Shown: positions 11,269 through 63,537 of the stretch, one piece after another | Numbering within the stretch: position 1 is the stretch's first letter | How the letters are laid out: each line of letters opens with the position of its first letter | Origin: Tardibacter chloracetimidivorans | GTDB taxonomy: Bacteria; Pseudomonadota; Alphaproteobacteria; Sphingomonadales; Sphingomonadaceae | Assembly (NCBI RefSeq): GCF_001890385.1 | Contig: NZ_CP018221.1 | Coordinates: forward strand, 1,475,501 to 1,539,500 | DNA: 64,000 nucleotides | Direction of reading: 5' to 3' | Translations under genes and position numbers: made by a program | Notes under the pieces: generated by a model | Told to the model about the DNA's origin: nothing | What the model saw: the letters and a program-made list of their open reading frames with translations, nothing else | The model's database searches: none

Positions 11269-12084
11269 ATGACTGTTATCAACACCAACACTTCGGCGCT
11301 TCGGGCTCAGAACGCCTCGCGCCTCGCTGAAATGAACCTTTCGCGTGCAATGGAACGCCTGTCTTCGGGCAAGCGCATCAACTCCGCTCGCGACGACGCC
11401 GCCGGCCTTGCCGTCGCATCGCGTATGACTGCGGAAATCCGTGGCCTTGGCGCTGCGATCCGCAACGCAAATGACGGCATCTCGCTGGCCCAGACGGCCG
11501 AAGGCGCGATGGGCGAAGTCACCAACATGCTTCAGCGCATGAAGGAACTTTCGGTCCAGTCGGCCAACGGAACGCTGAGCGACGGCGACAAGGACAATCT
11601 GCAGGCCGAATTCGCCGAGCTGATCGCACAGATCGACGACATCGCCAACCGCACCACCTTCAACGGCGTTGCGCTGGCTGACGGCACCAACGCCACCGTC
11701 TCGATCCAGACCGGCACCAGCGCCGGCGAGACCGTGGACGTCACGCTGTCCGACCTGACGGCGGCGACGCTTGCGATCGACGCGTTAGACATCGGCTCCG
11801 CCGGTGACGCGGACGCCGCGATGACCGCCATCGACGCTGCGCTCGACACGGTGACAACCGCACGGGCAACGCTGGGCGCGGTTCAGAACCGCCTCGACGC
11901 CACCGTCAACAGCCTGACCGACCGCGCCACGAACCTGACGGAATCGCGTTCGCGGATCGAAGACACGGATTTCTCGGCAGAGACGACCAATCTCGCCAAG
12001 TCGCAGATCCTGTCCCAGGCCGCCACCGCAATGCTCGCCCAGGCGAACCAGTCGCAGCAGAACGTGCTGTCGCTGCTCCGCTAA
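11269..12084 (+). CDS. fliC: Flagellin
   Basis: 271 residues with the two conserved terminal D0/D1 helical regions: N-terminal [16 protein letters not shown] with [17 protein letters not shown], and C-terminal [15 protein letters not shown] followed by a Q-rich, LLR-ending tail. The central variable domain is very short (about residues 140-185), so this is a minimal filament subunit with almost no surface domain. It is driven by a sigma-28 site upstream and followed by a GC hairpin. It is the only flagellin gene in the window. Confidence 0.97.
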
Positions 12085-12971: not shown

Positions 12972-13718
12972 CTATTCGGTCCATTCGGAAAGCTGGCCGC
13001 GCATCCGGTCCAGCGCCACCTTCTTGATCTGGCAGACGCGCGCCGCGCCGACGCCCAGCACCTCGCCGATCTCGTCGAGGTTCAGTTCCTCGACATAGTA
13101 AAGCTGGAGGACCATCGCCTCGCGTTCGGGCAGGTTGCGGATGCCGGCCGCCAGCGCCCGTTCCAGATCGGCGCGCTCCAGCGCATCGGCGGGCGTTTCG
13201 CCATCATCGACGAACCATTCCGAATGATCGGAATAGATGTCGTCCAGATTTTCATATTGCACGCCCTGGGTGGCGTCGATCTCGCGCAGCAGTTCCTCGA
13301 TCGATATGCCCATGCGGGCCGCAAGCTCGACCTGCGTCGGCGAGCGGCCGAGGACGACCTCGGCTTCCTTGCGGGCAGCGTTCAGCCTCCTTCGCCGCAC
13401 CAGCGCGCTGCGGCACATGTTCGCCTGCCGCCGAAGCTGGTCGATCATCGCGCCACGGATGCGGGTGGTTGCGTAGGAGGAAAAGGCCGCCACGCCGCGT
13501 TCCTCGAAATTGCGCGCCGCCTCCAGCAGGGCGACGGTGCCGATCTGCACCAGATCGCCCACCTCTATCGCCGAGCTGACATGGCCATGCACATGCCACG
13601 CGATCTTGCGGACAAGGCCCAGGTGCGTCTCCACCAGCTTTTGTGGAGACGGGCGGGCGGCGGGCGCCCGCGAATAGACGAGATCGCCTGCCGACCTTAT
13701 GTCAGGCTGCGCGTGCAT
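12972..13718 (-). CDS. fliA: Flagellar RNA polymerase sigma factor FliA (sigma-28)
   Basis: 248 residues. Region 2 reads HLGLVRKIAWHVHGHV then VGDLVQIGTVALLEA and FSSYATTRIRGAMIDQLRR. Region 3 has RSPTQVELAARMGIS and region 4 has LPEREAMVLQLYYVEELNLDEI with the HTH IGEVLGVGAARVCQIK. The ATG at 13718 overlaps the flhG gene by 17 bases and has GAGGG five bases upstream. As the last gene of the transglycosylase-flhA-flhF-flhG operon it falls under a sigma-54 promoter. It should drive fliC and motAB from the sigma-28 sites seen here, opposed by FlgM. Confidence 0.95.
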   Translation of the reverse strand: MHAQPDIRSAGDLVYSRAPAARPSPQKLVETHLGLVRKIAWHVHGHVSSAIEVGDLVQIGTVALLEAARNFEERGVAAFSSYATTRIRGAMIDQLRRQANMCRSALVRRRRLNAARKEAEVVLGRSPTQVELAARMGISIEELLREIDATQGVQYENLDDIYSDHSEWFVDDGETPADALERADLERALAAGIRNLPEREAMVLQLYYVEELNLDEIGEVLGVGAARVCQIKKVALDRMRGQLSEWTE

Positions 13719-14577
13719 TCTCACCCTCGAAGAAGGAATTGGCGGTGAAGGCGAAGGCTTCCGTCCGGGTCCGCTTGTCGATTTCCCATGCAATGCGGTT
13801 GAAGGCCTGACCGGCCGAGGTCAGCGGATAGGCTTCCACCACGCATTTCTTGCGAAGCGCGGCGCGGCGGACATGCGGATCGGCCGGGATCGAACCCAGA
13901 TGATCAAGCGCGATGTCGAGAAACTTTTCTGCCACCGCCTTGAACCGCTGGAACAGATGCCGCCCCGCCGCCTCGCTCGTCGTCATGTTGGTCAGGACCA
14001 GCGCGCGCCTGCACCGGCCGCGGGCGGCAAGCGCCTTCAACAGGCCATAGCCGTCGATGAAGCTGGCGGGCTCGTCGTTGATGACGATGACCGCAAGATC
14101 GGCCCGTTCGACAAAGCCGGTGACGATCGGCGCGATTCCGGCCGCAGTGTCGATCACCAGATAATCGAGTTCATCCTCGAACACGCGGAACGCGCCGCAC
14201 AACCTTTGCTGCACATCGTCGTCCAGAACGGCAAGGCTCGCGTCACCCGATCCACCACTGATGAGGCCGATGCCACCCGGCCCGGCCTGGACGATGTCGG
14301 CGAGCGGGGCCTTGCCCGACAGCGCATCTTCCACCGTCGCCTGCGCGGGCAGGCCCAGCACGACACCGGCATTGGCAAGGCCAAGGTCGGCGTCGAACAG
14401 CATCACCCTTTTGCCGCCCCGTGCGAGCGACACCGCGACATTGACCGACACATGAGTCTTGCCGACCCCGCCCTTGCCGCTTGCAACCGCCACCACCACC
14501 GGGCGCCTGCCATTGTCCTGAGCCGAGGTGTCGGGCGTGTTCATGTGGCGGGAAACCCTTTCGATTTGAGCGATCAT
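13702..14577 (-). CDS. flhG: MinD-like ATPase FlhG/FleN, flagellar number regulator
   Basis: 291 residues. The deviant Walker A motif SGKGGVGKTH (Lys40 region) is followed by LFDADLGLANAGVVLGL and the Walker B-like YLVIDTAAGI. A C-terminal part lacks a recognisable MinD amphipathic helix. FlhG/FleN limits flagellar number, acting with FlhF and usually on the sigma-54 activator FleQ/FlrA. The ATG at 14577 overlaps the flhF stop as ATGA, indicating coupled translation. Confidence 0.93.
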   Translation of the reverse strand: MIAQIERVSRHMNTPDTSAQDNGRRPVVVAVASGKGGVGKTHVSVNVAVSLARGGKRVMLFDADLGLANAGVVLGLPAQATVEDALSGKAPLADIVQAGPGGIGLISGGSGDASLAVLDDDVQQRLCGAFRVFEDELDYLVIDTAAGIAPIVTGFVERADLAVIVINDEPASFIDGYGLLKALAARGRCRRALVLTNMTTSEAAGRHLFQRFKAVAEKFLDIALDHLGSIPADPHVRRAALRKKCVVEAYPLTSAGQAFNRIAWEIDKRTRTEAFAFTANSFFEGENARAA

Positions 14578-15527
14578 TGCAGCGCCGCCGATCCGCCCGC
14601 CGACAGCGCGGCCGCGATCATCCGGCACAGGCTGGTGCCGCGCGCGGTGGCAAGCCCGTCGGCCAGTTCGGCAGAGCGGCCGATGGCGGCCAACGGTATG
14701 CCGCTTTCAAGCAGCATGTGGAGCGCTGCCCCCGGCGGCAGCGTCTCGCCCGCATGGGTCAGCACATAGCCGTCGAACTCGGAGGCAAAGAGCTGGGCGA
14801 CCTGCCGGTGCCGCGCCAATTGCCCGTTGAGGGGCAGCGTGCAGAGCACGGTGAGCGTGCCCACCCGCCCGAAGCGGAGGCGAAGCTCCTCGGTCTCGCA
14901 GGCGGCGAGCCGGGGGTCGCTCGGCATGTCGATGAACAGCCGGCGGCTGCCGCCGAGACGCACCACCGCATCGGCCAGGCTTTCGCGCGGTTCCGGTTCC
15001 ACCATCGGCACGCCGATCATGCCGGAGATGATGCGCAGCTGCTCGCGCGCGCCCAGTCGCCGGTCGGCGGCAAGCAATGCGACCGGCTCATGCGGCCATT
15101 CCGATCTCGCCATCGCGGCCAGCTGGGCCAGCGTCGTCGTCTTTGCGCTGCCGCTGTCGCCCACTACGCACAGATGCGCGAGGTCGCGGTGCGGCAGGGG
15201 CGCGAGGGCAAGCTCGCGTTCCACCCTCAAGGTAAAGCGCGACCAGACATCGGCCAGATCGTCGCCGCAGATCGCCAGTTCGGCCGAAAGCAGTTCGGGG
15301 TCCACGCCCACCGCGCGCGCCTGGGCGATGAAGCGCACCATCGGATCATGTCGGGGCTTGAGCGCTTGCGGGGCGATGGGCGGCATGCGCCGTTCGACGC
15401 CTGCGACAACTTCCACCCCGCCCCTTGTCTTGCGGGTCTGGATGATGACCGCGTCCGGGCCGAGCGCGTCCATCACGCGGTTCAAGGCGCTGCGGCTGTC
15501 CGGTGCGGTGATCGTTGTCGTCTGCAT
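14574..15527 (-). CDS. flhF: FlhF-like SRP-type GTPase with degenerate G motifs
   Basis: 317 residues, shorter than many FlhF proteins. Position between flhA and flhG and the SRP-GTPase layout identify it. The P-loop reads GDSGSAKTTT (123-132) instead of GPTGVGKTTT. The DTYR-type motif survives as ADRRLGAREQL. The DTAG motif is DMPS (200-203), and the TKLD guanine-specificity motif is replaced by THAG (257-260). FlhF normally places the polar flagellum. Here GTP binding or hydrolysis may be weakened or lost. The N-terminal region has the usual VMDALGPDAVIIQTRKT helix. Confidence 0.88.
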   Translation of the reverse strand: MQTTTITAPDSRSALNRVMDALGPDAVIIQTRKTRGGVEVVAGVERRMPPIAPQALKPRHDPMVRFIAQARAVGVDPELLSAELAICGDDLADVWSRFTLRVERELALAPLPHRDLAHLCVVGDSGSAKTTTLAQLAAMARSEWPHEPVALLAADRRLGAREQLRIISGMIGVPMVEPEPRESLADAVVRLGGSRRLFIDMPSDPRLAACETEELRLRFGRVGTLTVLCTLPLNGQLARHRQVAQLFASEFDGYVLTHAGETLPPGAALHMLLESGIPLAAIGRSAELADGLATARGTSLCRMIAAALSAGGSAALQ

Positions 15528-15548: not shown

Positions 15549-17636
15549 TTATTCCGTGCCGCGGCCGACCACGGCCACCACCTGAACCTGACGGCTGTCC
15601 GGTATCTCGTAGAAGGACAGCACCGTCACATCCGGCAGATGCTGGCGCAGGAGTTGGAACAGCGGCCTGCGCACGAGCGGCGTCGTAACCACAGCAAAAG
15701 TCGTGCCATCTGCGAGCAGCGGCTTGGCGGCTTCGCCAAGCGCCGTCAGGATGCGTTGCGAAAGCGCCGGGTCCAGCGGATAGGCGCCGCTAGGATCGGC
15801 CCGCACAGACGACACCAGAAGCTGTTCCAGATCGCCGTCCAGCGTGATGATCTTGAGCTGGTCCTTCAGCCCGCACAGCCGCTGCACGATCAGTCCGCCC
15901 AAGGCCGGGCGGATAAGCTCGGTCAGCTCGGCCGGGTCTTGTGTCCGGTGCGCGGCCCCTGCCAGAGCCTCCACAATCCGCCGGAAATCGCGGACGGGCA
16001 CGCTTTCGTCGAGCAGCGTCTGGAGCACCTGCGTGATCGTCTGGAGCGACAGCGCCTTGGTGATATTGCCGACAAGCTGGGGTGCTGCCGCCTGCAGGGT
16101 GTCGAGCAGCTTTTGCACTTCGTCCTGACCGAGAAGCTGGCAGGACTGGCTCTGGAGGATCTGGTTGACGTGCGTTGCGACCACCGTCGACGCATCGACG
16201 ACCGTATAGCCGCTGGCGACGGCCTGGTCCTTCTGCTCGGCCGGAATCCAGAGTGCTTCCAGGCCGAACGTCGGATCCTTGACGGCGCGCCCGGAAACCG
16301 ACGCATGGACGAGGCCGGAATCGAGCGCCAGCATGTCGTTGGGCGAAACCTCGTCCTCGCCGTGCACGACGCCCGACACGAGCACGCGATAGGCATGAGG
16401 GGCAAGGCTCATATTGTCGCGCACGCGAATGGGCGGGACGACGAAGCCAAACTCGCGCGACAGCTGGCGGCGGATGCCGGTGAGGCGGCCCATCAGCGGG
16501 GCGCTGAGCTTTTCGTCCACCAGCCCGATCAGCCCATAGCCGATCTCGACGCTGATCTGGACATTGTCGGTCACGTCTTCCCAGTTGATCTGCGATTCTC
16601 GCGCCGGATCGGCGACGGCCGCATCGGCCGTTTCCGGCGCGGCGGATGCGGATTGCGCCTTCTTCAGCCGCCAGGCGGCATAGGCCGCAAGACCGGCGGC
16701 AGGCAGGATGATCATCTGCGGCATGCCGGGCAGCACGCCCAGCAATGCGAGGATGGCCGCAACCGGAGTCCATGCGGCGGCCGAACCGAACTGGCTGGAC
16801 ATCTGGCCGGTCAGGTCCAGCGGCGAGGAAACGCGGGTGACGATGACGGCCGCCGCAATCGAAAGCATCAGCGCGGGCACCTGCGCGACAAGGCCGTCGC
16901 CGATCGCCAGCAATATATAGTTGGACCCGGCCTCGGCCATCGTCAGGCCATGCTGCACCGTGCCCAGGATCAGCCCGCCGATGATGTTGACCGCAAGGAT
17001 CAAAAGACCCGCGATCGCATCGCCCTTCACGAACTTGGATGCGCCGTCCATCGATCCGTAGAAATCGGCCTCGGTCGCGACTTCCTGCCGCCGCGACTTG
17101 GCCTCGTCCGGGGTCAGCAGCCCGGCGTTGAGATCGGCGTCGATCGCCATCTGCTTGCCGGGCAACGCATCGAGCGTGAAGCGCGCCGACACTTCGGACA
17201 CGCGACCCGCGCCCTTGGTGATGACGACCAGATTGATGATGATCAGGATCATGAAGACGAACAAGCCGACGACATAGTCGCCGCCGATCAGGAAATGGCC
17301 GAAGGCCTCGATCACCTGTCCCGCAGCGTCAGGCCCGGTGTGGCCGTTGACCAGCACCACCCGGGTCGAGGCGACGTTCAGCGCCAGGCGGAGCAGCGTG
17401 GCGAACAGCAACACGGTCGGGAAGGACGAGAAATCGAGCGGCTTCTGCGTATTGAGCGACACCATCAGCACCGCAAGCGCGATCATGATGTTGAGGATGA
17501 AGAACACGTCGAGGAGGAACGGCGCGATCGGCACCACCATCAGCACGACCAGCAGCAATATGCCGAGCGGCAGCATCGCCGCCCTGCCCGCACCGGCCCA
17601 GATCGTCCGGTTCATCTGCAATGCGGCGGTCGTCAT
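15549..17636 (-). CDS. flhA: Flagellar export gate protein FlhA
   Basis: 695 residues, full length. The N-terminal half has about eight membrane segments (LPLGILLLVVLMVVPIAPFL onward) with the FHIPEP family signature around RLALNVASTRVVL and the charged cytoplasmic loop ARFTLDALPGKQMAIDADL. The C-terminal half is the cytoplasmic docking domain for chaperone-substrate complexes. It is the core of the type III flagellar secretion gate. The ATG overlaps the stop of the transglycosylase gene as ATGA. The partner flhB is not in this window. Confidence 0.97.
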   Translation of the reverse strand: MTTAALQMNRTIWAGAGRAAMLPLGILLLVVLMVVPIAPFLLDVFFILNIMIALAVLMVSLNTQKPLDFSSFPTVLLFATLLRLALNVASTRVVLVNGHTGPDAAGQVIEAFGHFLIGGDYVVGLFVFMILIIINLVVITKGAGRVSEVSARFTLDALPGKQMAIDADLNAGLLTPDEAKSRRQEVATEADFYGSMDGASKFVKGDAIAGLLILAVNIIGGLILGTVQHGLTMAEAGSNYILLAIGDGLVAQVPALMLSIAAAVIVTRVSSPLDLTGQMSSQFGSAAAWTPVAAILALLGVLPGMPQMIILPAAGLAAYAAWRLKKAQSASAAPETADAAVADPARESQINWEDVTDNVQISVEIGYGLIGLVDEKLSAPLMGRLTGIRRQLSREFGFVVPPIRVRDNMSLAPHAYRVLVSGVVHGEDEVSPNDMLALDSGLVHASVSGRAVKDPTFGLEALWIPAEQKDQAVASGYTVVDASTVVATHVNQILQSQSCQLLGQDEVQKLLDTLQAAAPQLVGNITKALSLQTITQVLQTLLDESVPVRDFRRIVEALAGAAHRTQDPAELTELIRPALGGLIVQRLCGLKDQLKIITLDGDLEQLLVSSVRADPSGAYPLDPALSQRILTALGEAAKPLLADGTTFAVVTTPLVRRPLFQLLRQHLPDVTVLSFYEIPDSRQVQVVAVVGRGTE

Positions 17637-48899: not shown

Positions 48900-49991
48900 T
48901 CAAGCCCCCTCGCCTCGTTCGGCAGGGGATCGCTGGTAGGATAACATCTTTAATTGTTCGCGGACGGCCTGATACCCGCGAATGGCTTCTCGTGCAGCGG
49001 AAAGAGCCGCATTGCCCTTTTCCGGCCTAGATTCCTCATTGCCTTCAAAATTGGCTTCCTCATCATCCTCACCGCCATCGGGAGCAACAAAATCTACATT
49101 GCCCCCCTTCTCGTTGAATGTGAGCAGCTTCTTGATTGAGTTTTTCAGCGCAGGGATTTTGTCGCCGTTAGCATCCGCCAAGAGCGGCTTCAACTCACCC
49201 AAGATAGTGTCTAAGGCATCTATCTTACGTGTCTCAATAAGGCTTTGGAGTTCCTGTTCCATCGTTGTTGTGAGCAGCTTTTTTTGTCGCAGGTCTTCCA
49301 TCAAGTTAAGTACTTCCAACCCGTCCTTCGCAACACCGGCAACATGCTTAGAGATAATTGCAAGCATCGCTGTGACAGCAGCCGTCCCTGCCAGGATAAG
49401 GATGATTGAACCTGTAGTAGCGCCGACAACACGGGTCTCTTCCGGCGCCTCATTGGAAGCAAGAGCTAGCCCTCGGACAATATCATACCAGTCCTTCGCA
49501 GAGTCCTTCCATTCGGTCAGATTGTTGATCGCTGCTTCCTTCTGGAAGCCAACGCGAATTGTGATAAGATCGCCATCGTCTTCCGGGCCAGCATTGCGCA
49601 GGTTGAGACCATTCAACGCATTGAGAAATGCGTCAAAGTGCTTACCCGCCGTTGACAGGGCACTGAATGCTGCATTCAATTCGCTCAGAGCGGTCGCCGG
49701 ATCGTAATTCGATGATTTGATTGTCGCCTCTATAAAGTTAGCCCCCTCGATTCCAAGAAAGCGGCTAACGCCTAACTGATCCAGCAACCTGATTTGCTGG
49801 AGTGAGAGCACTTCAAAGTCCATCCCCCTGAGATAGTTGAGAACGTTGGTCAGCTGTGTTTCAAAGGGCTGTTTATTAGGCTGACTGGCATTGTGCTGGA
49901 TGGGAGCTATTAGTCTTTGATAACTTTTGCTTAGCGGTTGAAAGTACTCTAGGTACCAATTAGCTAGCCTCTCGATTTCCCCAACGTTCAT
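48900..49991 (-). CDS. Unknown membrane-anchored protein carried by the insertion
   Basis: 363 residues, not recognised. A polar, helical N-terminal region (about 1-185) is followed by one hydrophobic segment GATTGSIILILAGTAAVTAM (about 190-213). A helical region comes next (DGLEVLNLMEDLRQKKLLTT; TRKIDALDTILGELKPLLAD), then an acidic linker (about 300-325) and a terminal helix (AAREAIRGYQAVREQLKMLS). The ATG follows GGGGG. Codon use and GC differ sharply from the surroundings. Topology suggests a single-pass inner-membrane protein with large soluble parts. A defence or toxin role is possible but unsupported. Confidence 0.85.
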   Translation of the reverse strand: MNVGEIERLANWYLEYFQPLSKSYQRLIAPIQHNASQPNKQPFETQLTNVLNYLRGMDFEVLSLQQIRLLDQLGVSRFLGIEGANFIEATIKSSNYDPATALSELNAAFSALSTAGKHFDAFLNALNGLNLRNAGPEDDGDLITIRVGFQKEAAINNLTEWKDSAKDWYDIVRGLALASNEAPEETRVVGATTGSIILILAGTAAVTAMLAIISKHVAGVAKDGLEVLNLMEDLRQKKLLTTTMEQELQSLIETRKIDALDTILGELKPLLADANGDKIPALKNSIKKLLTFNEKGGNVDFVAPDGGEDDEEANFEGNEESRPEKGNAALSAAREAIRGYQAVREQLKMLSYQRSPAERGEGA

Positions 49992-58054: not shown

Positions 58055-59515
58055 CTATCGCTTCAGAAACTTGTCGAAGCCCGGCGGCAAGCCGCCCGGA
58101 CCGCCCGCGCCGGGAAGACCGGGCAGGCCTCCCCCACCGCCGCCCATCATTCCGGCAAGGCCGCCAGCACCGCCCGGCATCTTTCCCATCAGGCCCATCA
58201 ACGCCTTCATCCCGCCCATCTTCCTGAGCTTCTTCATGGCGGTGGACATTTCCTGATGCATCTTGAGCAGCCGGTTCACGTCCTGAACCGTGGTGCCCGA
58301 TCCCTTGGCGATGCGGATCTTGCGCTTGGCGTTGAGGATGTCTGGCTTGGCGCGCTCCTTGGGAGTCATGGAGCCGACCATCGCCTCCATGCGAAGCAGC
58401 AGCCGGTCGTCGGGTCCGTTGTTCGCCATCGCGGCCTTGGCCTTCGCCAGCCCCGGTATCATCGAGGCAAGTGCGCCGATTCCGCCCATGTTGCGCATCT
58501 GGCGAAGCTGGGAGCGCAGGTCCTCCATGTCGAACTGGCCCTTCGACATCTTGGCCGCCAGCCTTTCGGCGGCGTCCTGCTCCATCGTCTCGGCCGCCTT
58601 TTCGACAAGGCTGACGACGTCGCCCATGCCGAGGATGCGACCGGCGACCCGGCGCGGATCGAAGGTGTCGAGCGCGTCCAGCTTCTCGCCGACGCCGACG
58701 AACTTGATCGGGCGTCCGGTGACGGCGCGCATCGAGAGCGCCGCGCCGCCGCGCGCATCGCCGTCCATCCGGGTGAGGACGACGCCGGAGAGTTCGACCT
58801 GATCGGAAAAGCTCCTCGCGACATTGACCGCGTCCTGCCCGGTCAGCGCATCGACGACGAGCAGCGTCTCGTCCGGCTCGGCCACCCGGGCCACCGCCTT
58901 CATCTCCTCCATCAACTGCGCGTCGACGTGGAGGCGGCCCGCCGTGTCCAGCATCACCACGTCAAAGCCCTGGAGCTTCGCCGCCTGAAGCGCGCGGCGG
59001 GCGATGTCGACCGGCTGCTGCCCGACGACGATCGGCAGCGTCGCGACGCCGGTCTGCTCGCCGAGCACGCGGAGCTGTTCCTGCGCGGCCGGGCGGGCGA
59101 CGTCCAGCGACGCCATCATCACCTTCTTGCGGCCCTTTTCGGTCAGCCGCTTGGCGATCTTGGCGGTGGTCGTCGTCTTGCCGGAGCCTTGCAGACCAAC
59201 CATCATGACGACCGCCGGAGGCGTGACGTCGAGATTGAGGTCGACTGCATCCGACCCCAGCATTTCGACAAGGCCGTCATGGACGATCTTCACGACCTGC
59301 TGGCCGGGCGTGACCGAGCGAATCACCTGCTGGCCGACAGCCTGCTCGGTGACCTTGTCGACAAAGCTGCGGGCGACCGGAAGCGCGACATCGGCCTCCA
59401 GCAGCGCGACGCGCACTTCGCGCATCGCCTCGCGGACATCGGCTTCGGAGAGCGCACCACGCCCACGCAGGCGGTCGAACACGCCGCCAAGCCGGTCGCT
59501 CAGGCTCTCAAACAT
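58055..59515 (-). CDS. ffh: Signal recognition particle GTPase Ffh
   Basis: 486 residues. NG domain with GLQGSGKTTTTAKIAKRL (G1), DVARPAAQEQLRVLG, LDTAGR (G3) and TRMDGDARGG (G4); a Met-rich M domain follows; and a Gly/Pro/Met-rich C-terminal tail ends LPPGFDKFLKR. It targets membrane proteins with its receptor FtsY, also in this window. It is the first gene before rpsP. Confidence 0.96.
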   Translation of the reverse strand: MFESLSDRLGGVFDRLRGRGALSEADVREAMREVRVALLEADVALPVARSFVDKVTEQAVGQQVIRSVTPGQQVVKIVHDGLVEMLGSDAVDLNLDVTPPAVVMMVGLQGSGKTTTTAKIAKRLTEKGRKKVMMASLDVARPAAQEQLRVLGEQTGVATLPIVVGQQPVDIARRALQAAKLQGFDVVMLDTAGRLHVDAQLMEEMKAVARVAEPDETLLVVDALTGQDAVNVARSFSDQVELSGVVLTRMDGDARGGAALSMRAVTGRPIKFVGVGEKLDALDTFDPRRVAGRILGMGDVVSLVEKAAETMEQDAAERLAAKMSKGQFDMEDLRSQLRQMRNMGGIGALASMIPGLAKAKAAMANNGPDDRLLLRMEAMVGSMTPKERAKPDILNAKRKIRIAKGSGTTVQDVNRLLKMHQEMSTAMKKLRKMGGMKALMGLMGKMPGGAGGLAGMMGGGGGGLPGLPGAGGPGGLPPGFDKFLKR

Positions 59516-59722
59516 AGACCTACTCCCAAACGGTTTTACGCCGGCGGGCGAAAACTCGCTGGCCGGCGTGCATCCGTGGACGCTGTGCAATCATGCTCTT
59601 CGAAGATCGAAGCAGTTCGCTCCTAACGCCGGACGGCCGCAAAAGTCAACGCCGGGGCGATCTTCATACCTTGGAAAGATTTTCGCGCGAAGCTCCGGGT
59701 CAACATGCAGCAGGAGGCATTG

Positions 59723-61364: not shown

Positions 61365-62605
61365 CGGCGGAGGTCATCACCTTTGGATGCCGCCTGAACG
61401 CCGCGGATTCCGACGCCATGCGCGCGCTGGCGGCGGACGGCGGGGAGACGGTGATCGTCAACACCTGTGCTGTGACGGGCGAAGCGGTGCGGCAGGCGCG
61501 GCAGGCGATCCGCAAGGCCAAGCGGGCCAATCCGGCAGCCCGGGTGATCGTCACCGGCTGCGCCGCGCAGATCGAGCCGCAGACCTTCGCCGCAATGCCC
61601 GAGGTTTCGCGGGTGCTGGGCAATATCGACAAGTTCGAGCCTGCCAATCTGCGTTTCGACGATGCGGATGTTCCCGACGTGCGCATGTCCGACATCATGG
61701 CCGTGCGACAGACAGCGCCCCACATGCTGGGTGGTTTCGCCGAACGCGCCCGCGCCTTTGTGGAGGTGCAGAACGGCTGCGACCACCGCTGCACCTTCTG
61801 CATCATCCCCTATGGGCGGGGAAACTCACGCTCCGCCCCCGCCGGGCTGGTGATCGACCGGATCAAGGCGCTGGTCGATCAGGGCTTTGGCGAAGTGGTG
61901 CTGACGGGCGTGGACGTGACATCCTATGGCCCCGATCTGCCGGGCGGCTCCACGCTCGGAAGGCTGGTGCAACGCATCCTGACCCATGTGCCGGAGTTGA
62001 AGCGCCTGCGCCTGTCATCGATCGATTCGGTGGAAATCGACGAGGCGCTGCTTGACGCGATCACCGGGGAATCCCGGCTGATGCCACATCTTCACCTGTC
62101 GTTGCAGGCCGGTGACGACATGATCCTGAAACGGATGAAGCGCAGGCACGACCGCAGGCAGTCGATCGATTTCTGCGCGCGGGTGCGCAAGGCGCGGCCC
62201 GATGTAGCCTTTGGCGCGGACCTGATCGCGGGCTTTCCGACCGAAACCGACGAAATGTTCGAGAACACGCTGCGGCTGATCGACGAATGCGACATCGTCT
62301 TCGGCCATATCTTCCCCTATTCCGCGCGCACCGGAACCCCTGCCGCCAAAATGCCGCAGGTGCCCGTGCCGGTGCGGAAGGAACGCGCCGCCCGGTTGCG
62401 CGCCGCTTCGGCGACCCGGCTCGATCGCTGGCTCGCTTCCCTGGTCGGAACCACCCAGCGCCTGCTCGTGGAGCGGGAGGACGGCAGCGGACATGGCGAG
62501 AGCTTTGCCCCCATCCGCATCGATGGCGGCGGCGAACCGGGAGAGATTGTGGCTGTTAAGACATCCGGCGTTGTGGATGGGATGCTTGAGGCGGTGAAAG
62601 CGTGA
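61361..62605 (+). CDS. mtaB: tRNA t6A37 methylthiotransferase MtaB
   Basis: 414 residues. MTTase N-domain with cluster cysteines C10, C36 and C67. Radical-SAM motif CDHRCTFC (140, 144, 147), SAM site GVDVTSYGPDL and a C-terminal TRAM domain (RLLVEREDGSGHGESFAPIR). It converts t6A to ms2t6A in tRNAs reading ANN codons. The GTG start is read as GTGA over the dapF stop. Confidence 0.95.
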   Translation: MTAEVITFGCRLNAADSDAMRALAADGGETVIVNTCAVTGEAVRQARQAIRKAKRANPAARVIVTGCAAQIEPQTFAAMPEVSRVLGNIDKFEPANLRFDDADVPDVRMSDIMAVRQTAPHMLGGFAERARAFVEVQNGCDHRCTFCIIPYGRGNSRSAPAGLVIDRIKALVDQGFGEVVLTGVDVTSYGPDLPGGSTLGRLVQRILTHVPELKRLRLSSIDSVEIDEALLDAITGESRLMPHLHLSLQAGDDMILKRMKRRHDRRQSIDFCARVRKARPDVAFGADLIAGFPTETDEMFENTLRLIDECDIVFGHIFPYSARTGTPAAKMPQVPVPVRKERAARLRAASATRLDRWLASLVGTTQRLLVEREDGSGHGESFAPIRIDGGGEPGEIVAVKTSGVVDGMLEAVKA

Positions 62606-63537
62606 TCGAAGAAAAGGGCGGAAGCTGGCTCGATCGGCTGAGGCGCGGCTTCTCCCGCACGTCGGAGCGGCTGAACGAGAATCTCACCGGCCTTGTCGGG
62701 CCTGGCATCGAGCTTGACGAACGGACGCTTGGCGAGCTTGAGGAGGCGCTGATCGCGACCGACCTTGGCCCCGCTGCTGCGGCCCGAATCGCCGCGCGGG
62801 TGGGCGAAGGGCGCTACAGCAAGACGCTGGACGAGGCTGGCCTGCGCGCCATCGTTGCCGATGAAATCGCAAAGATCCTGCGCCCGGTCGCCAAGCCGCT
62901 GGAGATCACCGCCTTTCCGCGCCCGCATGTGGTGCTGGTGGTGGGCGTCAACGGATCGGGCAAGACCACGACCATCGCAAAGCTGGCGCATCTGTTCACC
63001 GAGCAGGATTATTCGGTGATGCTTGCGGCGGGAGACACCTTTCGCGCCGCCGCCATCGCCCAGCTCCAGACATGGGGCGACCGCGCGGGCGTGCCGGTGG
63101 TCTCGGGCAAAGAAGGCGCGGATGCGGCAGGCCTCGTGTTCGACGCGCATCAGCGCGCGCGGGCCGAAGGAGTCGACGTGCTGATCGTCGACACCGCCGG
63201 ACGCCTCCAGAACAAGCAGGGCCTGATGGACGAGCTTGCCAAGGTGAAGCGCGTGCTCGGCAAGCTGGACGCCGCCGCGCCGCACGACGTGGTGCTGGTG
63301 CTGGATGCGACCGTCGGCCAGAATGCGTTCAGCCAGATCGAGGCATTCCGCGAGACGGCCGGTGTCACCGGGCTGGTGATGACCAAGCTGGACGGCACGG
63401 CGCGCGGCGGCGTGCTGGTTGCGGCGGCGGAACGCTATGGCCTGCCGATCCATGCCGTGGGCGTTGGTGAAACCATGACCGACCTGCGCCCGTTCGATGC
63501 GGATGAACTGGCCCGCGCCATCGCCGGCGCACGTTGA
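62602..63537 (+). CDS. ftsY: SRP receptor GTPase FtsY
   Basis: 311 residues, starting with GTG that overlaps mtaB (GTGA). The short N-terminal domain lacks the long acidic A region of E. coli FtsY. G motifs: GVNGSGKTTTIAKLA, DTFRAAAIAQL, DTAGRLQNKQGLMDE and TKLDGTARGG. It binds Ffh at the membrane. Confidence 0.96.
   Translation: MIEEKGGSWLDRLRRGFSRTSERLNENLTGLVGPGIELDERTLGELEEALIATDLGPAAAARIAARVGEGRYSKTLDEAGLRAIVADEIAKILRPVAKPLEITAFPRPHVVLVVGVNGSGKTTTIAKLAHLFTEQDYSVMLAAGDTFRAAAIAQLQTWGDRAGVPVVSGKEGADAAGLVFDAHQRARAEGVDVLIVDTAGRLQNKQGLMDELAKVKRVLGKLDAAAPHDVVLVLDATVGQNAFSQIEAFRETAGVTGLVMTKLDGTARGGVLVAAAERYGLPIHAVGVGETMTDLRPFDADELARAIAGAR

Follow-up and report, generated by a model that had tools for sequence, protein, structure and literature searches.

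An FlhF homologue with altered guanine-site motifs in a small clade of Sphingomonadaceae

INTRODUCTION

Species differ in whether FlhF needs GTP binding, GTP hydrolysis or neither (published mutants, including those of PMC6092412). For Vibrio alginolyticus, G304A and K437A are reported to give fewer flagella and less polar localisation, with some flagella still forming; D439A abolishes flagella and E440K loses them too; G380A has little effect on flagellation and lowers motility; and R334A, which is dead for hydrolysis, is described as normal (PMC6092412). A G3 mutant of Campylobacter jejuni, T368A, has impaired GTPase activity and flagellation (PMC6282759), and GTP regulates FliG binding in Pseudomonas aeruginosa (PMC12713375). 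Work on Shewanella describes the FliG-interacting domain (FID) as strand-helix-strand-strand, assigns FliG binding to the first 60 residues of FlhF, and finds the contact of the NG domain with HubP to be nucleotide-independent (PMC11236974). The glutamine of the DQAxxLR motif of FlhG stimulates FlhF, according to a review (PMC12826062); Pseudomonas, which has FlhF, is stated to lack this motif (PMC12713375). FlhF is reported from only a few Alphaproteobacteria, where FipA is given as absent (eLife 2024, PMC11620751). Among other GTPases, RhoA G17A has been called a nucleotide-free mutant (PMC3044755).

Here we describe an FlhF homologue in which three motifs of the GTP site are altered, encoded in a stretch of 64,000 nucleotides from Tardibacter chloracetimidivorans (the window). 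The reading towards which we lean, with modest confidence, is that this FlhF has no guanine-specific GTP cycle and keeps its role in tethering FliG, a reading drawn from motifs, comparison and a predicted structure. In our search of mostly open literature on FlhF in sphingomonads, on pseudo-GTPases and on sphingomonad genera, no FlhF altered in this way came to light.

THE flhF LOCUS

The minus-strand flagellar genes of the window include fliA, flhG, flhF, flhA, an SLT-like ORF, flgN- and flgM-like genes, flgA, motB and motA (the SLT and FlgN matches fall below Pfam cut-offs), and further flgK, flgE and genes for a rod-binding protein and a rod protein; flagellin is encoded on the plus strand (11269-12084). 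The flhF ORF (14574-15527, minus strand; 317 aa) begins at an ATG preceded by a GAGG stretch, and its GC content by codon position (0.73/0.52/0.85) is gene-like. It lies between flhA (15549-17636, minus; TIGR01398, 832 bits, over cut-off) and flhG (13702-14577, minus; called by Pfam and NCBIfam), which encodes a MinD/ParA-type ATPase and whose likely ATG start overlaps the flhF stop (ATGA); the sigma-28 gene fliA follows (12972-13793, minus, ORF start uncertain; NF005413, E 2e-62, and TIGR02479, over cut-off). These Pfam and NCBIfam calls bear out the initial annotation, which had placed the gene beside flhA, flhG and fliA, and flhF sits between flhA and flhG in five relatives as well. Elsewhere in the window, a 363-aa ORF (48900-49991, minus) has a GC3 of 0.54 against mostly about 0.8 in its neighbours and matched nothing in Pfam, PHROGs or PADLOC; it was possibly acquired recently.

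The flhF product contains an SRP54 domain (Pfam, E 5.7e-13) and matches the NCBIfam FlhF model TIGR03499 with E 3.8e-25 and 89.5 bits, below the cut-off of 174.15, a shortfall that does not discriminate here because none of 396 genomes of the order reaches that cut-off. Annotation pipelines leaning on TIGR03499 may leave FlhFs of the order unnamed. The N-terminal head (aa 1-46; 15390-15527, minus) resembles the FID: residues 7-44 match the FlhF FID chain 9en1 in phmmer (E 1.1e-5) and residues 1-44 are predicted as strand-helix-strand-strand, FliG binding itself being putative. An AlphaFold2 model built from an alignment of 42 sequences (mean pLDDT 89.2, pTM 0.77) has FlhF 8r9r as its best Foldseek match (E 9.4e-14), followed by FtsY, Ffh and Bacillus subtilis FlhF, and VIA-align superposes model residues 60-309 on 8r9r (Z 26.4, rmsd 3.4, 243 aligned). 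An SRP-type NG domain is thus predicted at about aa 60-310 (14598-15350, minus), a good predicted fold telling nothing about the content of the pocket. Judged by gene place, head and predicted fold, the ORF is an FlhF homologue, for which the name of GTPase is not yet warranted.

Three SRP54-domain proteins were found in the genome, namely FlhF, Ffh (58055-59590, minus) and FtsY (62602-63537, plus), the latter two over their NCBIfam cut-offs; all three lie within the same 64-kb window. The initial annotation had named a second canonical flhF as the finding that would count against it, and none turned up in this genome, which is 96.85% complete. Models for the polar partners FipA (PF10975) and the FimV/HubP core (TIGR03505), each positive in four of four gammaproteobacterial control genomes, had no match in the three genomes searched (G000, G262 and G499), where divergent forms could be missed; the genome of L051, an alphaproteobacterial FlhF discussed below, gave a FipA match below cut-off (E 7.6e-4).

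MOTIFS OF THE GTP SITE

The motif register was set by aligning the protein with 31 other FlhFs, and the altered motifs that had been read from the ORF are all there. The P-loop (G1) is GDSGSAKTTT (aa 123-132; 15132-15161, minus) and departs from GxxGxGKT, with Ala128 in place of the Gly before Lys, at a position that we take to be that of G17A in RhoA. At G3, DMPS (aa 200-203; 14919-14930, minus) replaces DTAG and does not fit DxxG; at G4, THAGE (aa 257-261; 14745-14759, minus) replaces TKLDE, so that the TKxD of guanine specificity is missing. Asp200 aligns with the Asp of D-T-A-G, and Thr257 and Glu261 with T-K-L-D-E. Also kept are Lys129 and Thr130 of the P-loop and Asp155 and Arg157 of the G2 box DRRLGAREQL (15036-15065, minus), which is one residue shorter than the DTYRIGA type (a one-residue gap in the alignment).

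Placed on V. alginolyticus numbering by our own motif mapping, the window protein is changed at G304 (Ala), G380 (Ser), K437 (His) and D439 (Gly), and K305, T306, R334, D377, T436 and E440 are kept. An FlhF that is ordinary if poor, its altered site binding GTP at cell concentrations, is on these motifs quite improbable: the Thr and Glu of G4 and most of G1 are retained, and the V. alginolyticus G304A and K437A mutants form some flagella, but the Lys and Asp of TKLD are both lost along with the P-loop Gly, and D439A by itself is enough to abolish flagella in that species (PMC6092412).

We compared 98 FlhFs: 47 are gamma- or betaproteobacterial (assigned by record title, that of L100 saying just Pseudomonadota), 30 belong to other families within the order, 15 to other Alphaproteobacteria and six to the clade of the window. 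The set includes L054, whose ORF is truncated, and the strongly divergent L075; L005 (the same as L150), L021 (from the same genome as L006) and L155 and L156 (judged FtsY-like) were left out. Ala in place of the P-loop Gly before Lys is found in all six clade proteins and in none of the other 92, and loss of the G4 Asp in all six and in three of the 92 (L062 with Glu, L075 with Ala and the truncated L054). DTAG itself is present in 37 of the 47 gamma- or betaproteobacterial FlhFs and in three of the 30 from other families of the order, the D..G frame in 46/47 and 30/30, respectively. Among the other alphaproteobacterial FlhFs, eight of which were gathered with a profile built on such divergent sequences so that proportions are no census, G3 is readable in 13 of 15; none of these has DTAG, five have the D..G frame (DFSG, DISG), all 13 have TK/RLD, and only L051 keeps both the Asp and the Arg of G2. 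L051 is intermediate, with DMPS and an intact G2 beside GPSGSGKTT and TKLDE.

What is peculiar to the clade, at the level of motifs, is therefore the P-loop Gly-to-Ala change and the change of TKLD to THAG with loss of its Asp. The loss of DTAG alone says little, because it is shared by all 13 readable alphaproteobacterial FlhFs from outside the order, every one of which has TK/RLD. The initial annotation took the three changes together as weakening GTP binding and hydrolysis; the losses are real and this interpretation is supported in part, but the DTAG change carries little weight by itself, and with the phosphate and Mg side of the site retained without variation some ligand may still bind. 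The FlhFs without DTAG that keep TK/RLD (L051, L053, L061, L086, L109, L212-L215 and L217-L220) lack the G2 Asp/Arg pair in all cases except L051, and are perhaps, from these motifs, GTP binders without hydrolysis. The window clade reads as their mirror image, with G2 Asp and Arg kept and guanine recognition lost. This suggests that either half of the GTP site can go without the other: in other Alphaproteobacteria it is mostly the catalytic side that is gone and guanine recognition that stays, and in the window clade it is the reverse.

CONSERVATION AND SELECTION

Among the matches listed, FlhF occurs in six of 397 Sphingomonadaceae genomes and two of 96 genera, namely in the window's genus, represented in the family set by its one genome, and in five genomes of the genus g45. 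The family search matched 131 of the 397 genomes; the other listed matches (E 3.6e-9 or weaker, starting at query position 99 or later) were taken for Ffh or FtsY. FlhF was not found in a sixth g45 genome (78% complete), tblastn against 72,556 plasmid records gave no match, and FlhF used alone as a query against genome contigs gave no relatives. The alignment across Sphingomonadales that had been proposed as a check of the motif losses finds them common to the window and the five genomes of this one other genus, with identical G1, G3 and G4 letters in all six. Since six genomes have these motifs in common, sequencing error or chance was rejected as their source, and so was a decaying one-off, as the five g45 genomes carry all three changes with silent codon changes around them.

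The clade proteins are 63-66% identical to the window FlhF, against 84.7-85.8% for FlhA (tblastn). Over the whole of FlhF 114 of 314 aligned residues vary among the six genomes. Three stretches around the changed motifs, their borders picked after seeing the alignment, vary at none of 47 residues, yet vary at 29 codons; under random placement of the invariant positions P is 6.5e-11 for these stretches and, when the 19 motif residues are taken by themselves, 1.4e-4. Such invariance shows constraint on the new motif state, not its use, G motifs being conserved in most FlhFs. The reading frame is intact in all six genomes. Between the window and g45, dN/dS (NG86) is 0.280 for flhF, 0.146 for flhA and 0.275 for flhG; within g45 the values are 0.113, 0.080 and 0.105, respectively.

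Lys129, Thr130, Asp155, Arg157 and Asp200 are invariant in the six proteins, and the clade stands apart from other FlhFs only in G4, which reads the base, and in one Gly of the P-loop. Both points would fit a switch that survives with changed base specificity, using the retained phosphate site and the Asp and Arg of G2 to bind and perhaps hydrolyse ATP or another phosphate ligand, and still dimerising on binding. We regard this as unlikely: an adenine-reading motif of known type was not identified in the window FlhF, and the P-loop Gly-to-Ala change should hinder any nucleotide, as with RhoA G17A.

flhG AND THE HISTORY OF THE BLOCK

The window FlhG has an intact KGGVGKT. No DQAxxLR was seen before Walker A in the FlhG of the window or of the five relatives, with start sites as predicted. 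Across the 33 FlhGs inspected the motif is present in three (L064, L068 and L108) and as a variant, KQASGLIR, in L057; it was likewise not seen in eight orphan FlhGs, five from other Alphaproteobacteria, seven from the order, two from Pseudomonas, and L052. Its absence is weak evidence, because Pseudomonas is without the motif too. The C-termini of the window FlhG (13702-14577, minus) and of L148-L152, L160, L164, L169 and L173 end in an FF(G)xE-like motif, where the gammaproteobacterial FlhGs have an ending of LEFFVERL type.

FlhA was detected in 257 of the 397 family genomes. The DNA beside flhA was taken from 41 further genomes of 36 genera, a non-random choice made among those with the best FlhA scores. 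Eight of these 41, from four genera (g25 five times, g54, g125 and g36), have flhG without flhF beside flhA, with no room for flhF between the two; in the other 33, flhA is followed by fliA and neither flhF nor flhG was detected. The latter arrangement was also seen in 17 of 17 sphingomonad records chosen by title from 80 loci. Orphan flhG genes lie between flhA and fliA in L153, L158-L161, L164, L169 and L173, and the orphan FlhG of L164 has an altered Walker A (GRSGVGKT).

In trees, the FlhG of the window and g45 joins the orphan FlhGs of the family (14 rows, 98/95; L068 lost at trimming), and the FlhF clade sits on a branch of 1.91 changes per column, with long branches flagged and its wider place left open. 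The window FlhA is 56-66% identical to family rows outside g45, among the matches listed, 52% to L051, and 51-54% to the named family members L059, L066 and L116; FlhA identity alone does not decide the origin of flhF, because some family members reach only 51-54%. A gain of flhF from outside the family is possible. The simplest account would be an ancestral flhA-flhF-flhG-fliA block, with flhF missing from part of the descendant lines, flhF and flhG both missing from most, and an altered flhF retained in one.

Another reading is that the gene is on its way out, its FlhF function lost and its survival temporary, in line with the loss of flhF in other members of the family. The six carriers among 397 genomes (among the matches listed), the eight sampled loci with flhG alone, the long branch to the clade and a window-g45 dN/dS twice that of flhA would all agree with this. 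We nevertheless find it very doubtful, given six intact reading frames, a dN/dS of 0.113 within g45, and motif stretches that vary in codon and not in residue.

DISCUSSION

On the reading that we favour, FlhF has been kept in the flhA-flhF-flhG-fliA block, the guanine-specific GTP switch would have been given up, and the rest would be held by selection. The N-terminal head would bind FliG and gather FliF-FliG at the site of assembly, and the SRP-like NG domain would be a fixed module for docking or dimerisation, with no cycling between GTP dimer and GDP monomer; FlhF would thereby retain a part in siting or starting the flagellum, and FlhG would not act as a GTPase stimulator. This reading is argued for by three changes fixed in six genomes amid silent codon changes, with flhF under a dN/dS near that of flhG within g45; by Ala128 and the G4 Asp loss being absent or rare among the 92 other FlhFs; by changes at G304, K437 and D439 with the R334 position kept, set beside the V. 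alginolyticus mutants (PMC6092412); and by the FID match of the head and an FlhG in which DQAxxLR was not seen. The nucleotide-independent NG-HubP contact described in Shewanella (PMC11236974) offers a precedent for NG docking without a GTP cycle. Against it, GTP binding matters in published FlhFs (PMC6092412, PMC12713375), and neither of the polar partners, FipA and FimV, turned up in the genome.

Within this reading, the pocket may have no ligand or one with a phosphate group other than a guanine nucleotide. The Gly-to-Ala change, given the nucleotide-free RhoA G17A, and the loss of the base-reading Asp favour emptiness; the five invariant residues speak against it, since a dead pocket would need fewer. 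That the clade is one of pseudo-GTPases, a natural case of FlhF siting or starting the flagellum as a fixed scaffold without any nucleotide switch, we suggest only tentatively, thinking it possible and rather short of probable. If true, a fixed-scaffold clade would represent a stage intermediate between full control by FlhF and FlhG and the lack of both genes, the state of most family members sampled. Changes have become fixed in the clade at sites where single mutations made in the laboratory harm flagellation, which makes the essential part of FlhF directly testable, the more so as relatives in the family keep flhG alone or neither gene.

COMPARISON WITH KNOWN SYSTEMS

The window FlhF shares with canonical FlhF (Shewanella putrefaciens 8r9r and 9en1, B. 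subtilis 2px0 and 2px3) its gene place, a FID-like head and, by prediction, the SRP-type NG fold, and differs from it in that GxxGxGKT, DTAG and TKLD are all altered and in a linker of about 15 residues, whereas the NG match in 8r9r begins at residue 183. With Ffh and FtsY it has the NG fold in common, and its G2 has an Ffh-like A-REQLR stretch; unlike it, they are without a FID. Like the window protein, the divergent alphaproteobacterial FlhFs L051, L053, L061, L109, L212-L215 and L217-L220 have DTAG replaced, by DMPS also in L051, but they keep the P-loop Gly and TK/RLD, and most are without the Asp and Arg of G2, both of which the window FlhF retains. A more distant analogy may be drawn with the septins that are reported to have turned pseudo-GTPases (PMC10731463); they belong to an unrelated eukaryotic family, and in them, as apparently in the window FlhF, a GTPase fold has outlasted its degraded GTPase motifs.
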